Below, in pieces: positions 44,415 to 51,152 of a stretch of 64,000 bases of DNA. Both the position numbers and the translations under genes were made by a program. The DNA is from Brevibacterium daeguense (GTDB lineage Bacteria > Actinomycetota > Actinomycetes > Actinomycetales > Brevibacteriaceae): assembly GCF_021729135.1 (NCBI RefSeq), contig NZ_JAJTWW010000003.1:124001-188000 (forward strand), written 5' to 3'. Below the pieces are notes generated by a model that was given only the letters and a program-made list of their open reading frames with translations, was not told the DNA's origin and ran no database searches. The number at the start of each line of letters is the position of its first letter. The first letter of the stretch is position 1.

Positions 44415-45089
44415 ATGGTGCACATCGTCCTCGTCCGCCACGGCGAGAGCCACGCGAACGCCGCCGGCATCCTCGCCGGTCGCCTCCCCGACATCGCGCT
44501 GACCAGCGGCGGCGCCGAGCAGATCCGGCGGCTGATCGAGGTGCTCCCGTGGCAGCGCGTCACCGAGGTCCGCCATTCCACGGTGCAGCGCTGCGAGGAG
44601 ACGACCGAGGTCCTGCTCGAGGGGATCGAGGCCGGTGCGGTCCGGCCGGCTCCGGAGTTCGTCGAGGTCGACTACGGGGAGTGGTCCGGACGCCGGCTCG
44701 AGGACCTCAAGGCGCTTCCCGAGTGGCGCGAGGTCGCGCAGCGTCCCTCCGCGATGGTCTTCCCCGGTGGTGAGACTCTCGCCGCCGCCGCCGAACGGGC
44801 GGTGGGAGGCGTGCGTTCCTTCGTGTGCGATCTGCGTGCGCAGGCGGACCCGGACGCGCCTCCGGAGTCGGCGCCCGTGGGAATCGTCGTCGCCCACGGC
44901 GACATCATCAAAGCGGTGCTGGCCGCTGCCCTCGGCATGCCCCTCGACGACTTCCAGCGGATTGCGGTAGCGCCCGGGTCCTACAGTGTGATCACATATC
45001 CGCGGGAGGGCCACCCGACGGTGACGGCGATGTCGGTGACGGCACGCGGCCGAACCGGCCAGCCGGGCATGCTCGGCGGGGGAGCCTGA
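44415..45089 (+). CDS. MSMEG_4193-type phosphomutase-like protein
   Basis: This 224-residue histidine phosphatase superfamily protein has the catalytic histidine in VLVRHGES, arginine in STVQRCEET, acidic EVDYGEWSG and second histidine in VVAHGDIIK. It fits the actinobacteria-specific MSMEG_4193 family, which co-occurs with DUF3090 and SCO1664-family genes around mshC; here those genes follow within 3 kb. The substrate is unknown. The ATG at 44415 has TAGCCT (44402-44407) 7 nt upstream, which suggests a leaderless transcript. Confidence 0.85.
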   Translation: MVHIVLVRHGESHANAAGILAGRLPDIALTSGGAEQIRRLIEVLPWQRVTEVRHSTVQRCEETTEVLLEGIEAGAVRPAPEFVEVDYGEWSGRRLEDLKALPEWREVAQRPSAMVFPGGETLAAAAERAVGGVRSFVCDLRAQADPDAPPESAPVGIVVAHGDIIKAVLAAALGMPLDDFQRIAVAPGSYSVITYPREGHPTVTAMSVTARGRTGQPGMLGGGA

Positions 45090-45096
45090 ACCGGAG

Positions 45097-45924
45097 TCAG
45101 AGCGGGGACAGCACTCCGGTGCCGAGCAGGACGAACACGAGCAGCCCCAGCGCCACGCGGTACCACACGAACACCGCGAAGGACTTCGTCTGGATGAACT
45201 TCAGGAATCCGACGATCACGACGTAGCCGACGAGGAACGCGATGATCGTCGCCAGGATCGTCGGGCCCCAGCCCAGCACCATCGGCTCGCCGATGCTCTG
45301 GAAGAGACCGTAGAACCCGGAGGCCATGACTGCCGGCACCGCCAGCAGGAAGGAGTAGCGGGCGGCCGACTCACGGGTGAAGCCCATCAGCCGGCCGGCG
45401 ATGATGGTGCCGCCCGAGCGGGACACTCCGGGGATCAGCGCCATCGCCTGGGCCAGGCCGTAGAGGATGCCCTGCCGCCAGGTCATGTCCTCCAGTCCCC
45501 GCTCGCGCGGTCCGATCCTGTCGGCGACACCGAGGATGATGCCGAACACGATGAGCATCGTGCCGGTGATCCACAGATTTCGCAGGAACGAGTCGATGGC
45601 GTCCTGGAACAGCAGGCCGAGCACGCCGATCGGGATCGAGCCGAGGATGATGAACCACCCGAGGCGGGCCTGCGGATCGTTCCGCTCCCGCTTCCCGGTG
45701 AGCGAGGCGAACCATGCGCTGATGATTCCGACGATGTCGCGCCAGAAGTAGACGACCACAGCGGTCTCCGTGCCGATCTGCACGATCGCAGTGAAGAAGG
45801 CACCTGGATCCTGGCCCGGGAGCATGAACTCGCCGACGATGCGCAGGTGCGCCGAGGATGAGATCGGAAGGAACTCCGTCAGTCCCTGAACGACGCCCAG
45901 AATCGCAGCGATCAGCCAGTCCAT
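45097..45924 (-). CDS. uppP: undecaprenyl-diphosphatase UppP (BacA)
   Basis: UppP recycles the lipid carrier of cell-wall synthesis by dephosphorylating undecaprenyl diphosphate. The 275-residue membrane protein keeps the two signature motifs [13 protein letters not shown] (near residue 16) and PGVSRSGGT (near 165), the second with the catalytic arginine. AAAGAGGG lies upstream of the ATG at 45924. It diverges from the aldo/keto reductase-like gene across an inverted-repeat promoter region, and ends 7 nt from the phosphomutase-like gene. Confidence 0.95.
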
Positions 45925-45973
45925 CAATACCCTCTTTCGCACAGCACAGCCCACCTGGTGGTGGGCCCCGACC

Positions 45974-45998
45974 AGGTTACCCTCCTTTCGGGTAACCT
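45974..45998. promoter_or_regulatory. 9-bp inverted repeat in the uppP/AKR divergent promoter
   Basis: AGGTTACCC (45974-45982), 7 nt, GGGTAACCT (45990-45998) is a perfect inverted repeat. Each arm contains TAACCT, a plausible -10 hexamer: the right arm for the plus-strand AKR-like gene, 8 nt before its ATG, and the left arm for uppP. It can be read as a regulator-binding site or as two mirror-image promoters. Confidence 0.55.
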
Positions 45999-46006
45999 CG
46001 GTGAGT

Positions 46007-46924
46007 ATGCGATTCAACCGTGTGGGAGCGTCCGGTCTCGAGGTCTCCGAACTCGGTCTGGGCACCTTCGAGTGGGGCCACCGAGTGAGTCCCGAGACGG
46101 CCCAGGCCCTCGTCGAGGCGTACTGCTCGGCGGGCGGAACCATCGTGGAGATCTCGTCCTTCGCCTCGCCGGCGGCCGAGATCGTGGGATCGCTGGACCT
46201 TCCCCCGGAGCTCGCCCTGATCGGGCGCGTCGGAGTCGCAGTGCGCGGGGGAGCCGCACGGCTGTCGGCCGGGCGCGCGACGATCCTGCGTCAGGTGCGC
46301 GAGCTGCTGTGCCGCACCAGCAGGGATCGGATCGACGTGCTGGTGCTGGACGGATTCGATGCGCAGACTCCCCTCGAGGAGACCGCCTCGGCGCTGTGCA
46401 CCCTCATCGAGAGCGGTCAGGTCGTCCACGTCGGAGCGGCGCATCACACGGGGTGGCAGCTGGCCGCGCTCAGAGGCGCGGGCATCCCGGTCGTCGCCGC
46501 GCTCAATGAGCTCTCGCTGCTCGATCGCAGCGCCGAGGCCGAGGTGCTCCCGGCCGCCGACTACCTCGGGGTCGGGGTGCTCGCCGGTGCTGCCCTCGGG
46601 CGCGGCATCCTCACCGGCAAGTACGCCCGGGGAGTCCCGCGGGACTCGCGAGCATCCGGCGGAAATCGGGACTGGGTGGTCGAACTGCTCACCGACTCCG
46701 CTCGGCACACGGTCGCCGGGATCAGCAAAGCCGCGGCCGGGCTGGGGGTCGAGCCGCTCGACGTGGCGCTGGCCTGGAACCGCGCGCTGCCGGTGGCGAG
46801 CTCGCTGGTGGCCCCGCGGACTGTCGCTCAGCTGGAGCAGATCCTGCGCAGCGACCTGGTCCTCGAGCCGGAGATCCGCGATGCACTGGATCAGATCTCC
46901 GACCCGTACGTGTCCGCTCGCTGA
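46007..46924 (+). CDS. aldo/keto reductase-like protein with lost catalytic tetrad
   Basis: This 305-residue TIM-barrel protein aligns with the aldo/keto reductases of the YdhF/potassium-channel beta type (LGLGTFEWG at the N-terminus; [20 protein letters not shown] in the second half). The catalytic tetrad is not conserved. Where active enzymes have FDTAxxYG it reads VEISSFAS; the lysine of VATK is arginine (LIGRVG); and the histidine of LHrpD is replaced (LVLDGFD). It may be a binding or regulatory protein. The ATG at 46007 was chosen; GTG at 46001 is possible. Confidence 0.8.
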
Positions 46925-47000
46925 TCTGATCGGCACGTGACCGCTCCCTGAATGGAGAAGCGCCCGTCGCCACCGATTGCAGTCCTCTTGAAACGACACG

Positions 47001-47036
47001 ATCGTCGCAACCTCTCGATGAGAGTGTTGCGGCGAT
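47001..47036. terminator. long hairpin after the AKR-like gene
   Basis: ATCGTCGCAAC pairs with GTTGCGGCGAT (one G-U), and the inner CTCTC/GAGAG continues the stem across a single bulged T, closing on loop GAT. This 16-bp structure lies between two convergent genes and probably ends transcription. A second pair, CCGCCCCG/CGGGGCGG (47046-47053 and 47074-47081), follows. Confidence 0.65.
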
Positions 47037-47082
47037 CATGTGAACCCGCCCCGGGGAGACGGGGGCTGTGCAGCGGGGCGGC

Positions 47083-47451
47083 TCAGCGGTCGCGGTCGTC
47101 CTCGTCCGAGTCGTCGGAGTCATCGTCGTCGTCCGATTCATCGTCGTCGTCATCGTCGGAATCGTCGTCGTCCGAGACCAGGACCTCGAACTCGTCGTCG
47201 TCCTCGAACTCATCGAAGTCGTCATCCTCGTTGTCCTTGGCGTCCTCGACATCGTCGAAGAGCTCGAACGGGGTGACCTCGTCGAAAGCGGTGTAGAGCG
47301 CGTCCTCATAGATCTCGAACGCGTCGGCCAGAGCCATGTAGCTGGCTTCCACTCGGGGATCGGTGTCGGAAGTGCGATGCGCAGCAGCGGCGTAGTGCTC
47401 GCGGACAGCGGAGAGGAACTCTTCGAGTGCCACCTGAGGATCAAGACTCAT
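47083..47451 (-). CDS. small protein with long aspartate-rich tail
   Basis: This 122-residue protein is of unknown function. The first 70 residues form a helical domain (ALEEFLSAVREHYAAAA; YMALADAFEIYEDALYTAFDE); the last 50 are almost only Asp, Glu and Ser, giving a highly acidic, probably disordered tail. The DNA of the tail is a TCG/TCC-type low-complexity run. The start at 47451 is supported by TACATT (47459-47464) ending 7 nt before it (leaderless). It diverges from DUF3090 by 110 bp. Confidence 0.75.
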   Translation of the reverse strand: MSLDPQVALEEFLSAVREHYAAAAHRTSDTDPRVEASYMALADAFEIYEDALYTAFDEVTPFELFDDVEDAKDNEDDDFDEFEDDDEFEVLVSDDDDSDDDDDDESDDDDDSDDSDEDDRDR

Positions 47452-47561
47452 ACGTCCAAATGTAGCCCACCGGATGACCCCCTGAAACCCTCCCCCTCGG
47501 GATGACCTCGAACGACGCATACCGATGTTCTCCCGGGTCGGAAGTGGAATAGTGTGGGGAT

Positions 47562-48128
47562 ATGGCAGCGCAGGTCTTCGATCATCCGAACCCCGATCGC
47601 TTCGTCGTCGGCACCGTCGGTCTGCCCGGGGAGCGCACGTTCTTCCTGCAGGCTCGCACCGACTCCAGGATCACCACGGTGACTTTGGAGAAGGAACAGG
47701 TCGAACTCCTGGGCGAGCGCATGAACGAGCTGCTGGACATGGTTCGATCCAAGTCGACGAACCCGCAGTCGATTCCCCTGGCGCCCCTGGAGTCGCATGT
47801 CGACAATGCCGGCCTGAGCATGCCGATCGAAGCGGAGTTCCGGGTCGGCACCATGAGTCTCGGCTGGGACACCGTTGCGGAGCATATGCTCGTCGAGTGC
47901 TTCGAGCTCACCCAGCGGGACGCGGAGTCGGGTACCAGCGCCGATCCCGAGGACGATTCGGAATCGCGTGACCGCCTCCGGGTCATCCTCACCGCGGCGC
48001 AGGCACGCGAGTTCGCCCGGCGCGCCGATCAGGTCGTCAATGCCGGTCGCGAGGACTGCCCGTTCTGCTCGCTGCCCCTCGATTCGGGCGGCCACATGTG
48101 CCCCCGAGCCAACGGGATCCCGCGCTGA
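47562..48128 (+). CDS. DUF3090 zinc-ribbon protein of the mshC cassette
   Basis: This 188-residue protein belongs to DUF3090, an actinobacterial family of unknown function. It starts with the conserved FDHPNPDRFVVGTVG and GERTFFLQ and ends with a small metal site, CPFC-SLPLDSGGHMCPRANG (CxxC plus H and C). An internal acidic loop (about 125-137) is variable. TAGTGT (47550-47555) ends 6 nt before the ATG. The stop overlaps the SCO1664-family gene (TGATG). Confidence 0.9.
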   Translation: MAAQVFDHPNPDRFVVGTVGLPGERTFFLQARTDSRITTVTLEKEQVELLGERMNELLDMVRSKSTNPQSIPLAPLESHVDNAGLSMPIEAEFRVGTMSLGWDTVAEHMLVECFELTQRDAESGTSADPEDDSESRDRLRVILTAAQAREFARRADQVVNAGREDCPFCSLPLDSGGHMCPRANGIPR

Positions 48129-48940
48129 TGCTCAACGAGCAGGATGTCTGCCGGCTCCTGCAGCACGGCGTCGTCGTCGAGCTCGGCCGCATCCCTGAGG
48201 CATCGAACGACACTCGCCTCGTCACCGTCGATCAGGACGGGGTCACCGTCCGAGCAGTCTACAAGCCACTGGCGGGTGAGCGACCCCTGCGCGATTTCGC
48301 CCACCGCTCCCTCGGCGGGCGGGAGGTGGCGTCGTACCTGTTGAGCAGACGTCTGGGCCTCGACATCGTGCCACCCACCGTGATGCGGGCAGGCCTTCCC
48401 AGCGGACCGGGTTCGCTGCAGGCCTACGTGGAGAGTGCTGACGACGCCGAGCCTCTCCTCCAGCTGTTCGCACCCGCCGCGGTGCCCGCGAACTGGTCTG
48501 CGATCTTCAACGCCGTCACCGGCTCCGACGAAGAAGTGGTGTTCGCGCATGCGCTCGACGAGCGACTGCGCCGACAGGCGTTCTTCGACGTCGTGACCAA
48601 CAACGCCGACCGGAAGGCCTCGCACATCCTCTTCGGGCACTACCTGTTCGACGGGCGTCCGCCGACGCTGTTCGGCATCGACAACGGCCTGACCTTCCAT
48701 GCCGCTCCGAAGCTGCGCACGGTGCTGTGGGGATTCGCCGGCTCGGCGCTGCTCGAGTCGGAGACGGTCGTGCTGCAGAAGCTGCTCGACGACAGAACCG
48801 CGGTTGCCGCCGAACTCGGGGCCGTGATCTCCGATCGCGAATCCACTGCGCTGTTCGACCGCGCCGAAGCGGTGCTGCGGTCCGGATCCCTGCCGGGTCT
48901 GCCGCTGAGCCGCACTCCCATCCCGTGGCCTCCGCTCTAG
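48128..48940 (+). CDS. SCO1664-family PI3/4-kinase-like protein
   Basis: This 270-residue protein belongs to the SCO1664 family, found beside DUF3090 and mshC in actinobacteria. Kinase-like landmarks are VRAVYKPLAGERPL (possible ATP-binding lysine), FFDVVTNNADRKASHIL as catalytic loop and FGIDNGLTFH as the metal-binding DxG-like loop, arranged as in phosphatidylinositol 3/4-kinase or HipA folds. The substrate is unknown. The ATG at 48128 overlaps the DUF3090 stop by one base. Confidence 0.85.
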   Translation: MLNEQDVCRLLQHGVVVELGRIPEASNDTRLVTVDQDGVTVRAVYKPLAGERPLRDFAHRSLGGREVASYLLSRRLGLDIVPPTVMRAGLPSGPGSLQAYVESADDAEPLLQLFAPAAVPANWSAIFNAVTGSDEEVVFAHALDERLRRQAFFDVVTNNADRKASHILFGHYLFDGRPPTLFGIDNGLTFHAAPKLRTVLWGFAGSALLESETVVLQKLLDDRTAVAAELGAVISDRESTALFDRAEAVLRSGSLPGLPLSRTPIPWPPL

Positions 48941-49032
48941 CCGCCGCGGTCTCCGCCGCAGTTGCCGCAGCCCCTATTCAGGTGCGCCGCGGGCAGTCGG
49001 CCGCGCCTGCGGGCATGCGCCGAGGCGCTTCT

Positions 49033-49061
49033 TTGATCGCTTCCCGTTCCATGCTTATGGT
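49033..49061 (+). promoter_or_regulatory. mshC promoter
   Basis: TTGATC (49033-49038), a 17-bp spacer and TATGGT (49056-49061) form a good housekeeping promoter. The -10 ends 6 nt before the GTG of mshC, so transcription should begin at the start codon. Confidence 0.7.
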
Positions 49062-49067
49062 TGTCTG

Positions 49068-50300
49068 GTGAAAACTTGGTCTGCACCCGAGATTCCCCAG
49101 CTGCCCACGGCAGGACAGAATCCCGTGGTGTTCTGCTCCTCAGCCCGTGGTCCCGTTGCCGTTCCGCGCAAGCGGCAGGACGTCCGCCTGTACGTCTGCG
49201 GCATCACCCCGTACGATGCGACCCACCTCGGGCACGCAGCGACCTACGTGACATTCGACACCCTGATCCGAGTGTGGCGGGACGCGGGAATCAGCGTCAA
49301 CTACGTCCAGAACACCACCGACATCGACGATCCGCTGCTCGAGCGGGCAGCCGCCACAGGAGTGGACTGGCAGGAGCTCGCCTGCTCTCAGATCGCGCTG
49401 TTCTTCCAGGATATGGAGGCGCTGCGCGTCATCCCGCCGGACTCCTACATCGGAGCGGTCGAGTCGATGGACCTCATCGTCGAAGCCGTCCAGGGACTGC
49501 AGGACAAGGGCTTCGCCTACACACTCGAGACCGGTGATGTCTACTACCGGGTCGACAGTGCCATCACGCCGCCGTTCGGCTCCGTGTCCCATTTCGACCG
49601 CAAGGCGATGACCGAGGTGTTCGGCGAACGCGGGGGAGATCCTGATACTCCGGGCAAGGAGAACCCGCTCGATGCGCTTCTGTGGCGCGCGGAGCGGGAA
49701 GGAGAGCCGAGCTGGGACGGCGGCCGCCTGGGACGCGGCCGGCCGGGATGGCACATCGAGTGCACCGCAATCGCGCAGCGCTATGCAGGTCTGCCGCTGA
49801 CGGTGCAGGGCGGGGGCAGCGACCTGGTGTTCCCCCACCATGAGATGTGCGCAGCGCACGCCACCGCGCTCACCGGCGAGCCCTTCGCCCGCGCGTACAT
49901 GCACACCGGAATGGTCGGCCTGGACGGGGAGAAGATGAGCAAGTCCCGGGGCAACCTGGTGTTCGTCTCCAAGCTGCTCGAGGACGGCGTCGACCCGATG
50001 GTCATCCGGCTGGTCCTGCTGTCGCACCACTACCGCAGTGACTGGAGCTTCCACGAATCCGATCTGGCCGAGGCGGAACAGCGCCTGGAGCTGTGGCGGG
50101 CGGCGGCGAAACTCGGGTCCTCGCTCGGGGCCGAGGTCGTGGTCGCGAATCTGCGTCAGGAACTCTCGGATGATCTCGACACCCCTGCTGCGCTGGGGGT
50201 CATCGACGATTGGGCCAGCGCCGCACTCAGCGAGACCGCGGGCGCAGAGACCGACGAGATCGTCGCTGCCGTGGACGCGCTGCTGGGCGTCCGGCTCTGA
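49068..50300 (+). CDS. mshC: mycothiol ligase MshC
   Basis: MshC ligates cysteine to glucosaminyl-inositol in mycothiol synthesis. The 410-residue enzyme is a cysteinyl-tRNA synthetase relative with class I motifs TPYDATHLGHAATY (HIGH-like) and KMSKSRGN (KMSKS). Zinc ligands are visible as the cysteine in YVCGITPY, the cysteine in GWHIECTAIA and the histidine in FPHHEM. It lacks the anticodon-binding domain of CysS. The GTG start is fixed by the promoter immediately upstream. Confidence 0.95.
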   Translation: MKTWSAPEIPQLPTAGQNPVVFCSSARGPVAVPRKRQDVRLYVCGITPYDATHLGHAATYVTFDTLIRVWRDAGISVNYVQNTTDIDDPLLERAAATGVDWQELACSQIALFFQDMEALRVIPPDSYIGAVESMDLIVEAVQGLQDKGFAYTLETGDVYYRVDSAITPPFGSVSHFDRKAMTEVFGERGGDPDTPGKENPLDALLWRAEREGEPSWDGGRLGRGRPGWHIECTAIAQRYAGLPLTVQGGGSDLVFPHHEMCAAHATALTGEPFARAYMHTGMVGLDGEKMSKSRGNLVFVSKLLEDGVDPMVIRLVLLSHHYRSDWSFHESDLAEAEQRLELWRAAAKLGSSLGAEVVVANLRQELSDDLDTPAALGVIDDWASAALSETAGAETDEIVAAVDALLGVRL

Positions 50301-50321: not shown

Positions 50322-51152
50322 TCAGCTCTCCCAGCGCCTGCGGTTGAGGTACCGTTCGAACTCTCGCGCGATGGCGTCTCCGGATGCCTCGGGCAGCTCG
50401 GCGGCGTCGGTCATGCCCTCGATCCGCTCCACGTGCTCCGCGAGGTCCTCGTCGGATTCGACGAGGGCATCGGTCCCGAGCTCCCACGCTCGCGCATCCT
50501 CGACGAGCTCGTGCTGCGGCACCACGAGTCCGGTGAGGTCCTCGAACGCTCCGAGCAGTGCGAGCACTGCCTTCGGCGAAGGACTCGACGCGGCATAGAC
50601 CGGCACCGCGACCCACTGCGATACCACGGCCACGCCCCGGTCGAACAGTGCCGTCGCCAGGGCCCCGATGATGCCGGTGGGTCCCTCGTATTCTGCGGGC
50701 TCCACGTCGAATCGTTCAGCCAGCTCGGCGCTGTCTGCGGTCGTGGACACCGGCAGCGGCCGGGTGTGGGCGACATCGGCCAAGAGCGCGCCGAGCAGCA
50801 CGACGTGATCCTCATCGCCGATGTGCTCCATCAGCATCGCCATGTAGTCCTGCCAGCGGTAGGACGGCTCCATGCCGATCAGCACCTCCACTCGAATGGC
50901 GGTGCCGGTCACGGTGCCGGAGTGCTTCGTGCAGCGCGGCCAGTCGATCTCCGGTCCGGACTCGGTCCGGCGGATCGTCGGCCGGATGAAGGTCATGTCG
51001 TAGAACTCGTCTCCCACGAGGGTGGCGGTTGGACGCAGTCCCCACTGGGCGATGAGGTGGCGGGCGGAGTCGACAGCGGCTTCGCCGGCGTCGTTCCATC
51101 CTTCGAAGGCGATGACGACGAGTCGCCCGTTCGCACTGGGCAGGAAATTCAT
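50322..51152 (-). CDS. PAC2-family protein
   Basis: This 276-residue protein belongs to the PAC2 (proteasome assembly chaperone 2-like) family. The archetypal features are FEGWNDAGEAA at the N-terminus, LLGALLADVAHTRPLPV near 125 and GPTGIIGALATAL near 155. PAC2-type proteins in actinobacteria are conserved near mshC; no function is established. TAATCT (51159-51164) ends 6 nt before the ATG, which starts only 22 bp from the divergent HAD gene. Confidence 0.9.
   Translation of the reverse strand: MNFLPSANGRLVVIAFEGWNDAGEAAVDSARHLIAQWGLRPTATLVGDEFYDMTFIRPTIRRTESGPEIDWPRCTKHSGTVTGTAIRVEVLIGMEPSYRWQDYMAMLMEHIGDEDHVVLLGALLADVAHTRPLPVSTTADSAELAERFDVEPAEYEGPTGIIGALATALFDRGVAVVSQWVAVPVYAASSPSPKAVLALLGAFEDLTGLVVPQHELVEDARAWELGTDALVESDEDLAEHVERIEGMTDAAELPEASGDAIAREFERYLNRRRWES

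Follow-up and report, generated by a model that had tools for sequence, protein, structure and literature searches.

A phosphatase, DUF3090 and SCO1664 gene trio beside mshC in Brevibacterium daeguense and its possible role in inositol-phospholipid phosphorylation

The trio and its locus

The DNA analysed here is a 64,000-nucleotide stretch of the Brevibacterium daeguense genome (contig NZ_JAJTWW010000003.1, positions 124,001 to 188,000), referred to below as the window, and the subject of this work is a set of three genes that it carries upstream of mshC. The first gene (44415..45089, forward strand) encodes a histidine-phosphatase superfamily protein (PF00300, E = 7.8e-35, 120.7 bits with a gathering score of 21.7) that resembles MSMEG_4193 of the TIGR03848 family, the second (47562..48128, forward) a DUF3090 protein that exceeds the cut-offs of both TIGR03847 (214.3 vs. 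117.25 bits) and PF11290 (202.2 vs. 27 bits), and the third (48128..48940, forward) a member of the SCO1664 family, TIGR03843 (249.4 bits, cut-off 172.4). For brevity, we call the first protein the mutase and the three together the trio. The mycothiol ligase gene mshC follows (49068..50300, forward; TIGR03447, 596 bits, cut-off 485.1).

The window thus carries a known but uncharacterised trio from which the phosphatase gene has been split off. It has the same families as the actinobacterial set TIGR03848/TIGR03847/TIGR03843, with DUF3090 and SCO1664 adjacent and above their cut-offs, but differs from that set in the mutase, which lies 2.5 kb away behind three genes (its matched part is 2493 bases from that of DUF3090) and scores below the curated TIGR03848 cut-off (176.5 vs. 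203.85 bits). An earlier account made from the letters alone, the sequence-only reading, had called this protein an MSMEG_4193-type phosphomutase; judged by its profile scores, it is a clear histidine phosphatase that can be assigned as MSMEG_4193-like and no further. All the genes named in that account were recovered in their places by profile matches and coordinates. The genes that set the mutase apart from DUF3090 are uppP, for undecaprenyl-diphosphatase (45097..45924, reverse; NF001392, 338 bits, cut-off 308), a gene for an aldo/keto-reductase-fold protein (46007..46924, forward; PF00248, E = 1.8e-28) and a conserved, strongly acidic open reading frame with an Asp/Glu/Ser-rich tail (47083..47451, reverse), the last of which had gone unmentioned in the earlier account.

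Phylogenetic distribution and gene order

Analysis of 326 Actinomycetota genomes, with 14 control genomes, showed that DUF3090 and SCO1664 are each encoded in 135 of the 326. Both are present in 134 genomes, either one alone in a single genome each and neither in 190 (Fisher p ~5e-91, uncorrected for phylogeny); the two exceptions are G172, which has DUF3090 only, and G174, which has only SCO1664, with a marginal match (9.1e-4). The mutase is found at E ≤ 1e-35 in 155 genomes, 98 of them above the cut-off, and the full trio in 133. In 21 genomes (G015, G044, G079 and 18 more, several of them in families f23 and f29) the mutase-like family occurs at that threshold in the absence of both DUF3090 and SCO1664. 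The statement that the three families travel together holds, and an independent distribution, against which the sequence-only reading had asked to be checked, is seen only in part: DUF3090 and SCO1664 are nearly inseparable, the mutase is looser, and DUF3090 is missing from Corynebacterium glutamicum. In that control genome SCO1664, the mutase and mshC are all above their cut-offs and the profile search gave no DUF3090 match, so that DUF3090 has either been lost there or has diverged beyond recognition; C. glutamicum represents a natural two-gene version of the set.

For gene order, we mapped 52 regions from 51 DUF3090-positive genomes chosen to represent many families; together with the window these make 53 loci. 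The order mutase, DUF3090, SCO1664, all on one strand, was found in all 51 DUF3090-bearing regions, with the mutase no more than 300 bases from DUF3090 (between matched parts) in 51 of the 51 comparison loci and the split arrangement of the window in none of them. A second copy in genome G008, from the same taxonomic order as the window, has the mutase and SCO1664 genes seven bases apart and no DUF3090 (L070); mutase–SCO1664 pairs without DUF3090 also occur at L144 and L153.

The trio extends beyond Actinomycetota. We scanned genome_contigs with an SCO1664 profile built from 32 sequences (A1) and used the best 80 of 593 relatives, some of whose loci end at a contig edge. Of these best 80, 58 belong to Chloroflexota, 75 have DUF3090 upstream of SCO1664 and 56 have a mutase (>50 bits) at the locus. 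SCO1664 was present in 50 of the 95 Chloroflexota genomes sampled. In two related Chloroflexota (L128 and L161) the mutase and DUF3090 are encoded by a single open reading frame in which each domain is complete, the sole direct link between trio proteins that we found; with an internal Met at the junction, the two may still be translated separately. In the window, the stop codon of DUF3090 (TGA, 48126–48128) and the start codon of SCO1664 (ATG, 48128–48130) have one base in common, from which the sequence-only reading had argued for a complex. The overlap is real, but among 52 loci, one of them the window, just 14 have a −1 or −4 overlap, as do 7 of the 75 loci from genome_contigs; it is the adjacency of the two genes that is conserved, not their overlap.

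In an SCO1664 tree of 132 rows, built by a quick method and with the long branches of the window and L075 unsure in place, 56 of 58 Chloroflexota rows group together (support 97). A 24-row group (support 99) contains all 15 rows of the mycothiol class, including the window, along with seven other named Actinomycetota and two Chloroflexota. The Chloroflexota loci L142 and L159 have their SCO1664 inside the actinomycete clade, owing either to transfer or to misbinned contigs. The pairs lacking DUF3090 at L070 and in Arthrobacter (L144) cluster together (support 100) among deep-branching Actinomycetota, a placement that suggests transfer of the mutase–SCO1664 pair. The window copy of SCO1664, on the second longest end branch of this tree (1.83), differs in this too from the usual actinobacterial set; it evolves fast, judging by that branch, and still keeps the invariant catalytic residues described below. 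The trio is probably ancient and has been kept in many bacteria of two phyla.

SCO1664 as a predicted kinase

The AlphaFold2 model of SCO1664 (predicted local distance difference test 89.5, predicted template modelling score 0.88) points to a kinase fold between the type II phosphatidylinositol 4-kinases (PI4KII) and the FAM20 secretory kinases, nearer to PI4KII in full structural alignment. In such alignments against the PDB the nine best matches by Z were all PI4KII (17.2–18.4, 226–235 residues), followed by FAM20 (13.3–15.7) and CtkA (up to 13.5). HipA/HipT (Z about 9–11) and the Legionella lipid kinase MavQ (10.0) have the same broad kinase fold and are more distant; no toxin–antitoxin arrangement was seen at the mapped trio loci. 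Sequence profiles agree in part. With A1, the PDB matches included PI4K2B (E = 3.6e-5) and FAM20A (0.0035), the former alignment covering the stretches GSxQLFVE, N-x-DR and IDxGL that SCO1664 has in common with PI4K2A and PI4K2B. At E ≤ 10, PF00454 matches 28 of the 32 A1 members and 75 of the 79 sequences in a larger profile, A4 (best 1.7e-11), but not the window protein, which lies below the gathering score. Foldseek, in turn, puts FAM20A first (E 1.6e-8, TM 0.60) and PI4KII next (8.8e-8, 0.56), and A4 also ranks FAM20A (6.7e-5) ahead of PI4KII (0.0012).

Among the residues invariant in 79 of 79 SCO1664 sequences are K46, E66, N158, D161, H166 and D185. The stretches that A1 aligns to PI4KII contain D161 and D185, and K46 would correspond to the beta3 Lys of PI4KII. 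Unlike PI4KII, SCO1664 has in all 79 sequences a His (H166) where the usual metal-binding Asn follows the catalytic Asp; it differs from FAM20 in being bacterial and in having IDHG or IDNG where FAM20A has LDNA (A4 alignment). Type II PI 4-kinases carry a cysteine cluster for palmitoylation; the window SCO1664, with its single cysteine, has no such cluster. Overall, the predicted fold and the invariant catalytic residues strengthen the kinase-like interpretation of SCO1664 offered earlier. A PI4KII-like fold by itself shows no function, and kinase activity is what fold and residues would predict.

The same data leave room for a protein substrate. SCO1664 might be a protein kinase of the FAM20/HipA type that modifies DUF3090 or a protein recruited by it, with the mutase as a histidine-phosphatase superfamily member that acts on phosphoproteins. 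The standing of FAM20, second by Z, first by Foldseek and top sequence match of A4, fits such a role, as does PF20613 (HipA_2), to which 39 of the 79 A4 members give a match at E ≤ 10; on the other hand, the top PI4KII match lies 2.7 Z units above the top FAM20 match in full structural alignment, the GSxQLFVE stretch is common to SCO1664 and PI4KII, and no substrate motif was identified. We regard this as a serious contender, though still a doubtful one.

The mutase-like phosphatase

A phosphatase-like partner, as proposed in the sequence-only reading, is well founded: beyond the PF00300 match, R8, H9, R59 and H161 are invariant in all 28 aligned mutase members and E84 is nearly so. The only dedicated study that we found for any trio member concerns Rv2135c, the mycobacterial orthologue by place, which is a tetrameric phosphatase and not a mutase; it weakly hydrolyses p-nitrophenyl phosphate, phosphoenolpyruvate, glycerol-1-phosphate and fructose-6-phosphate and leaves 3-phosphoglycerate, ADP and glucose-6-phosphate intact (PMC3866925). 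Such hydrolysis of small phosphoesters would suit a scheme in which SCO1664, much like the xylosylkinase FAM20B, acts as kinase on a soluble sugar or polyol phosphate and the mutase recycles the product, and the top FAM20 match (Z 15.7) is the Fam20 of Hydra, whose PDB entry is labelled glycosaminoglycan xylosylkinase. The Km values reported for Rv2135c are, however, about 8–14 mM, so that none of the compounds tried looks natural, and the recurring neighbours examined include no recognisable sugar pathway gene, which makes a soluble sugar substrate unlikely.

DUF3090

The AlphaFold2 model of DUF3090 (predicted local distance difference test 89.6, predicted template modelling score 0.82) has PUR-alpha repeats I–II as its five best structural neighbours (Z 8.6–9.1; the best over 112 residues at 3.2 Å), ahead of two proteins of unknown function (Z 6.5–6.7) and of Whirly and MRP (~5); Foldseek gives E 0.016 for PUR-alpha. 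The likeness is modest, a Z of about 9 being barely above the 7–8 usual for unmatched models; identity is 8–14 %, and DUF3090 adds a C-terminal zinc knuckle. A sequence search of the PDB gave nothing useful, and there is no PUR family among the Pfam matches listed (25 of 49 families).

The knuckle, CxxC..HxC, which the window protein carries, bears out the earlier description of a zinc-ribbon partner for most DUF3090 members, but not as an essential feature: 12 of 75 members lack it or have it without cysteines. One group of the SCO1664 tree (support 84) holds ten of them and another (support 99) the other two, so the knuckle was apparently lost twice. G20, G23, R25, F27, E43, K44, G162 and R163 are invariant in DUF3090; the knuckle is accessory. 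A published paper names DUF3090 a putative metal binder with the same CxxC..HxC pattern (PMC9425974); we did not rely on it.

The PUR-like fold usually binds nucleic acid. DUF3090 might accordingly bind RNA or single-stranded DNA, with the kinase and phosphatase acting on a nucleic-acid-linked target, in keeping with the five PUR-alpha matches, the weaker ones to the nucleic-acid-binding proteins Whirly and MRP, and the knuckle of most members. With the structural match so close to background, no PUR family in the Pfam matches listed, and kinase and phosphatase found together without DUF3090, we consider this quite improbable.

Candidate substrate

We tentatively favour, at a probability of roughly 0.37, an ancient kinase/phosphatase switch acting on an inositol phospholipid or its precursor. 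SCO1664 would be a kinase that uses ATP and belongs to the PI4KII/FAM20 branch of its fold, DUF3090, with its PUR-like core, would be its usual partner or regulator, and the mutase-like histidine phosphatase would take the phosphate off again. An inositol-containing phospholipid or a phosphorylated precursor of one is the likeliest substrate, and the trio would work as a phosphorylation switch at the membrane. The linkage to mshC may have come later, in mycothiol makers, with no dependence implied. The persistence of SCO1664 with the mutase where DUF3090 is absent (at L070, L144 and L153 and, by family matches, in C. glutamicum) fits such a pairing of kinase and phosphatase.

An inositol phospholipid or precursor is preferred to a protein substrate in view of the distribution of PIP-synthase, the neighbouring genes, a dibucaine result and mycobacterial PI3P. 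A PIP-synthase-like protein, counted at ≥95 bits, a limit set once the scores were known, is encoded in 63 of 68 DUF3090-positive and 42 of 68 DUF3090-negative Actinomycetota genomes (p 2.5e-5 with no correction for phylogeny); the family cut-off of 170 bits is reached in 12 of 68 and 0 of 68, respectively. Of the five positive genomes without it, G129 is 95 % complete and G253, G264, G277 and G317 are less than 90 % complete. In family f5, from the window's order, trio, mshC and PIP-synthase-like protein are all missing in four of four genomes. This distribution is permissive evidence only. The inositol part of the sequence-only reading is a possibility; its alternative, a thiol precursor, finds no support. 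Inositol synthase (PF07994, 69 of 326 genomes) was rejected as a marker: it also matched 5 of the 14 control genomes and missed genomes that we take to have inositol-1-phosphate synthase.

Among the 53 mapped loci, genes that recur near the trio in other lineages include those for GDPD (nine loci), a diacylglycerol-kinase-like protein (five) and undecaprenyl diphosphate synthase (four), which hint at a lipid setting. Mycobacteria reportedly form phosphatidylinositol 3-phosphate (PI3P) under stress (Morita et al. in 2010), and the literature searched, as far as its available text goes, names no gene for this activity. In M. smegmatis, insertions in MSMEG_4192, by order presumably the DUF3090 gene, are over-represented after dibucaine (1.49, p 0.045; PMC10127668). 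A table for BCG, not relied on, lists Rv2134c mutants, by order probably those of DUF3090, with altered sensitivity to rifampicin below the minimum inhibitory concentration (−1.42; PMC11329110).

Several points weigh against an inositol-phospholipid switch. The Foldseek and A4 rankings, the absence of a PF00454 match in the window and the invariant His166 tell against a PI4KII-like kinase, whose activity is itself predicted from fold and residues; DUF3090, with its suggestion of nucleic acid, is not indispensable, given C. glutamicum and the three pairs without it. PIP-synthase-like proteins occur in those 42 of 68 DUF3090-negative genomes as well, and they do not discriminate at all in Chloroflexota (48 of 50 genomes with SCO1664 vs. 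45 of 45 without, at ≥95 bits), being missing, too, from 3 of 36 further SCO1664-bearing Chloroflexota genomes. The trio has no apparent membrane anchor, no predictor having been applied, and the dibucaine and rifampicin results are borderline lines in long tables. A more specific version, in which SCO1664 is a chromosomal, non-effector phosphoinositide kinase with a PUR-like subunit and its own phosphatase, the missing enzyme behind mycobacterial PI3P, older than the mycothiol link and common to Actinomycetota and Chloroflexota, seems to us rather unlikely.

The trio, to which no role has been assigned, is kept in two-fifths of the sampled Actinomycetota, and its catalytic residues are now named for mutation. 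Searches for DUF3090, SCO1664, MSMEG_4191–4193, TIGR03843, TIGR03847, Rv2133c, Rv2134c and SCO1665–1667 returned passing mentions only, including table listings, none relied on, for DUF3090 (PMC13118837), MSMEG_4192 in a ClpC1 interactome (PMC10433963) and Rv2133c (PMC11754781). Results of the present analysis, compared with print only through these searches, are the fold assignments, the independence of the trio from mshC, the fusion of mutase and DUF3090 in Chloroflexota, a zinc knuckle that can be dispensed with and the lack of a DUF3090 match in C. glutamicum. The trio becomes a candidate for the PI3P-forming activity of mycobacteria; if the inositol-phospholipid switch is real, bacteria would have a phosphoinositide turnover of their own.

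Linkage to mshC

mshC is above its cut-off in 26 of the 326 Actinomycetota genomes; weaker matches to its profile (379–446 bits) in another 43 are probably cysteinyl-tRNA synthetases. By match coordinates, SCO1664 lies within 2 kb of mshC in 24 of the 26 genomes that have mshC above cut-off, the exceptions being G008 and G214. According to a 2013 review (PMC4255298), SCO1664 is always found in close linkage with mshC and could be part of its network. Among mycothiol makers the linkage is real yet has exceptions, and the trio is found well outside this group: of the 133 trio genomes, 26 have mshC above cut-off and 107 do not. The placing of the trio beside mshC, taken as typical in the sequence-only reading, therefore stands for mshC genomes and fails for most trio genomes, and its suggestion of a mycothiol or thiol role is not supported. 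The proposal that the trio serves mycothiol synthesis, already in print in that review and in line with the 24 of 26 linkages, is largely refuted and very hard to sustain, since mshC above cut-off is missing from 107 of the 133 genomes with the trio and the DUF3090–SCO1664 pair, often with the mutase, occurs in Chloroflexota. Attention thereby moves from mycothiol to a phosphorylation switch at the membrane or on inositol lipids or, alternatively, proteins.

Neighbouring genes

The sequence-only reading had noted uppP, a degenerate aldo/keto reductase and PAC2 close to the trio. UppP and the reductase are each present in only 8 of the 53 mapped loci, and in the window they stand between the mutase and DUF3090; together with the acidic open reading frame they are no core parts of the cassette. 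The catalytic residues of the reductase are, we presume, replaced, judging by eye against known motifs. The acidic frame has no Pfam or NCBIfam match, and its homologues occur in three loci of the window's order (L072, L074 and L075). Elsewhere, ETF (10 of 53 loci) and fumarase (9 of 53) recur and give no functional hint. Downstream of mshC in the window lies a PAC2 gene (50322..51152, reverse). A conserved protein of ~360 residues without a Pfam match at 1e-5 (L048:9918–11003) is encoded directly after SCO1664 in six loci.

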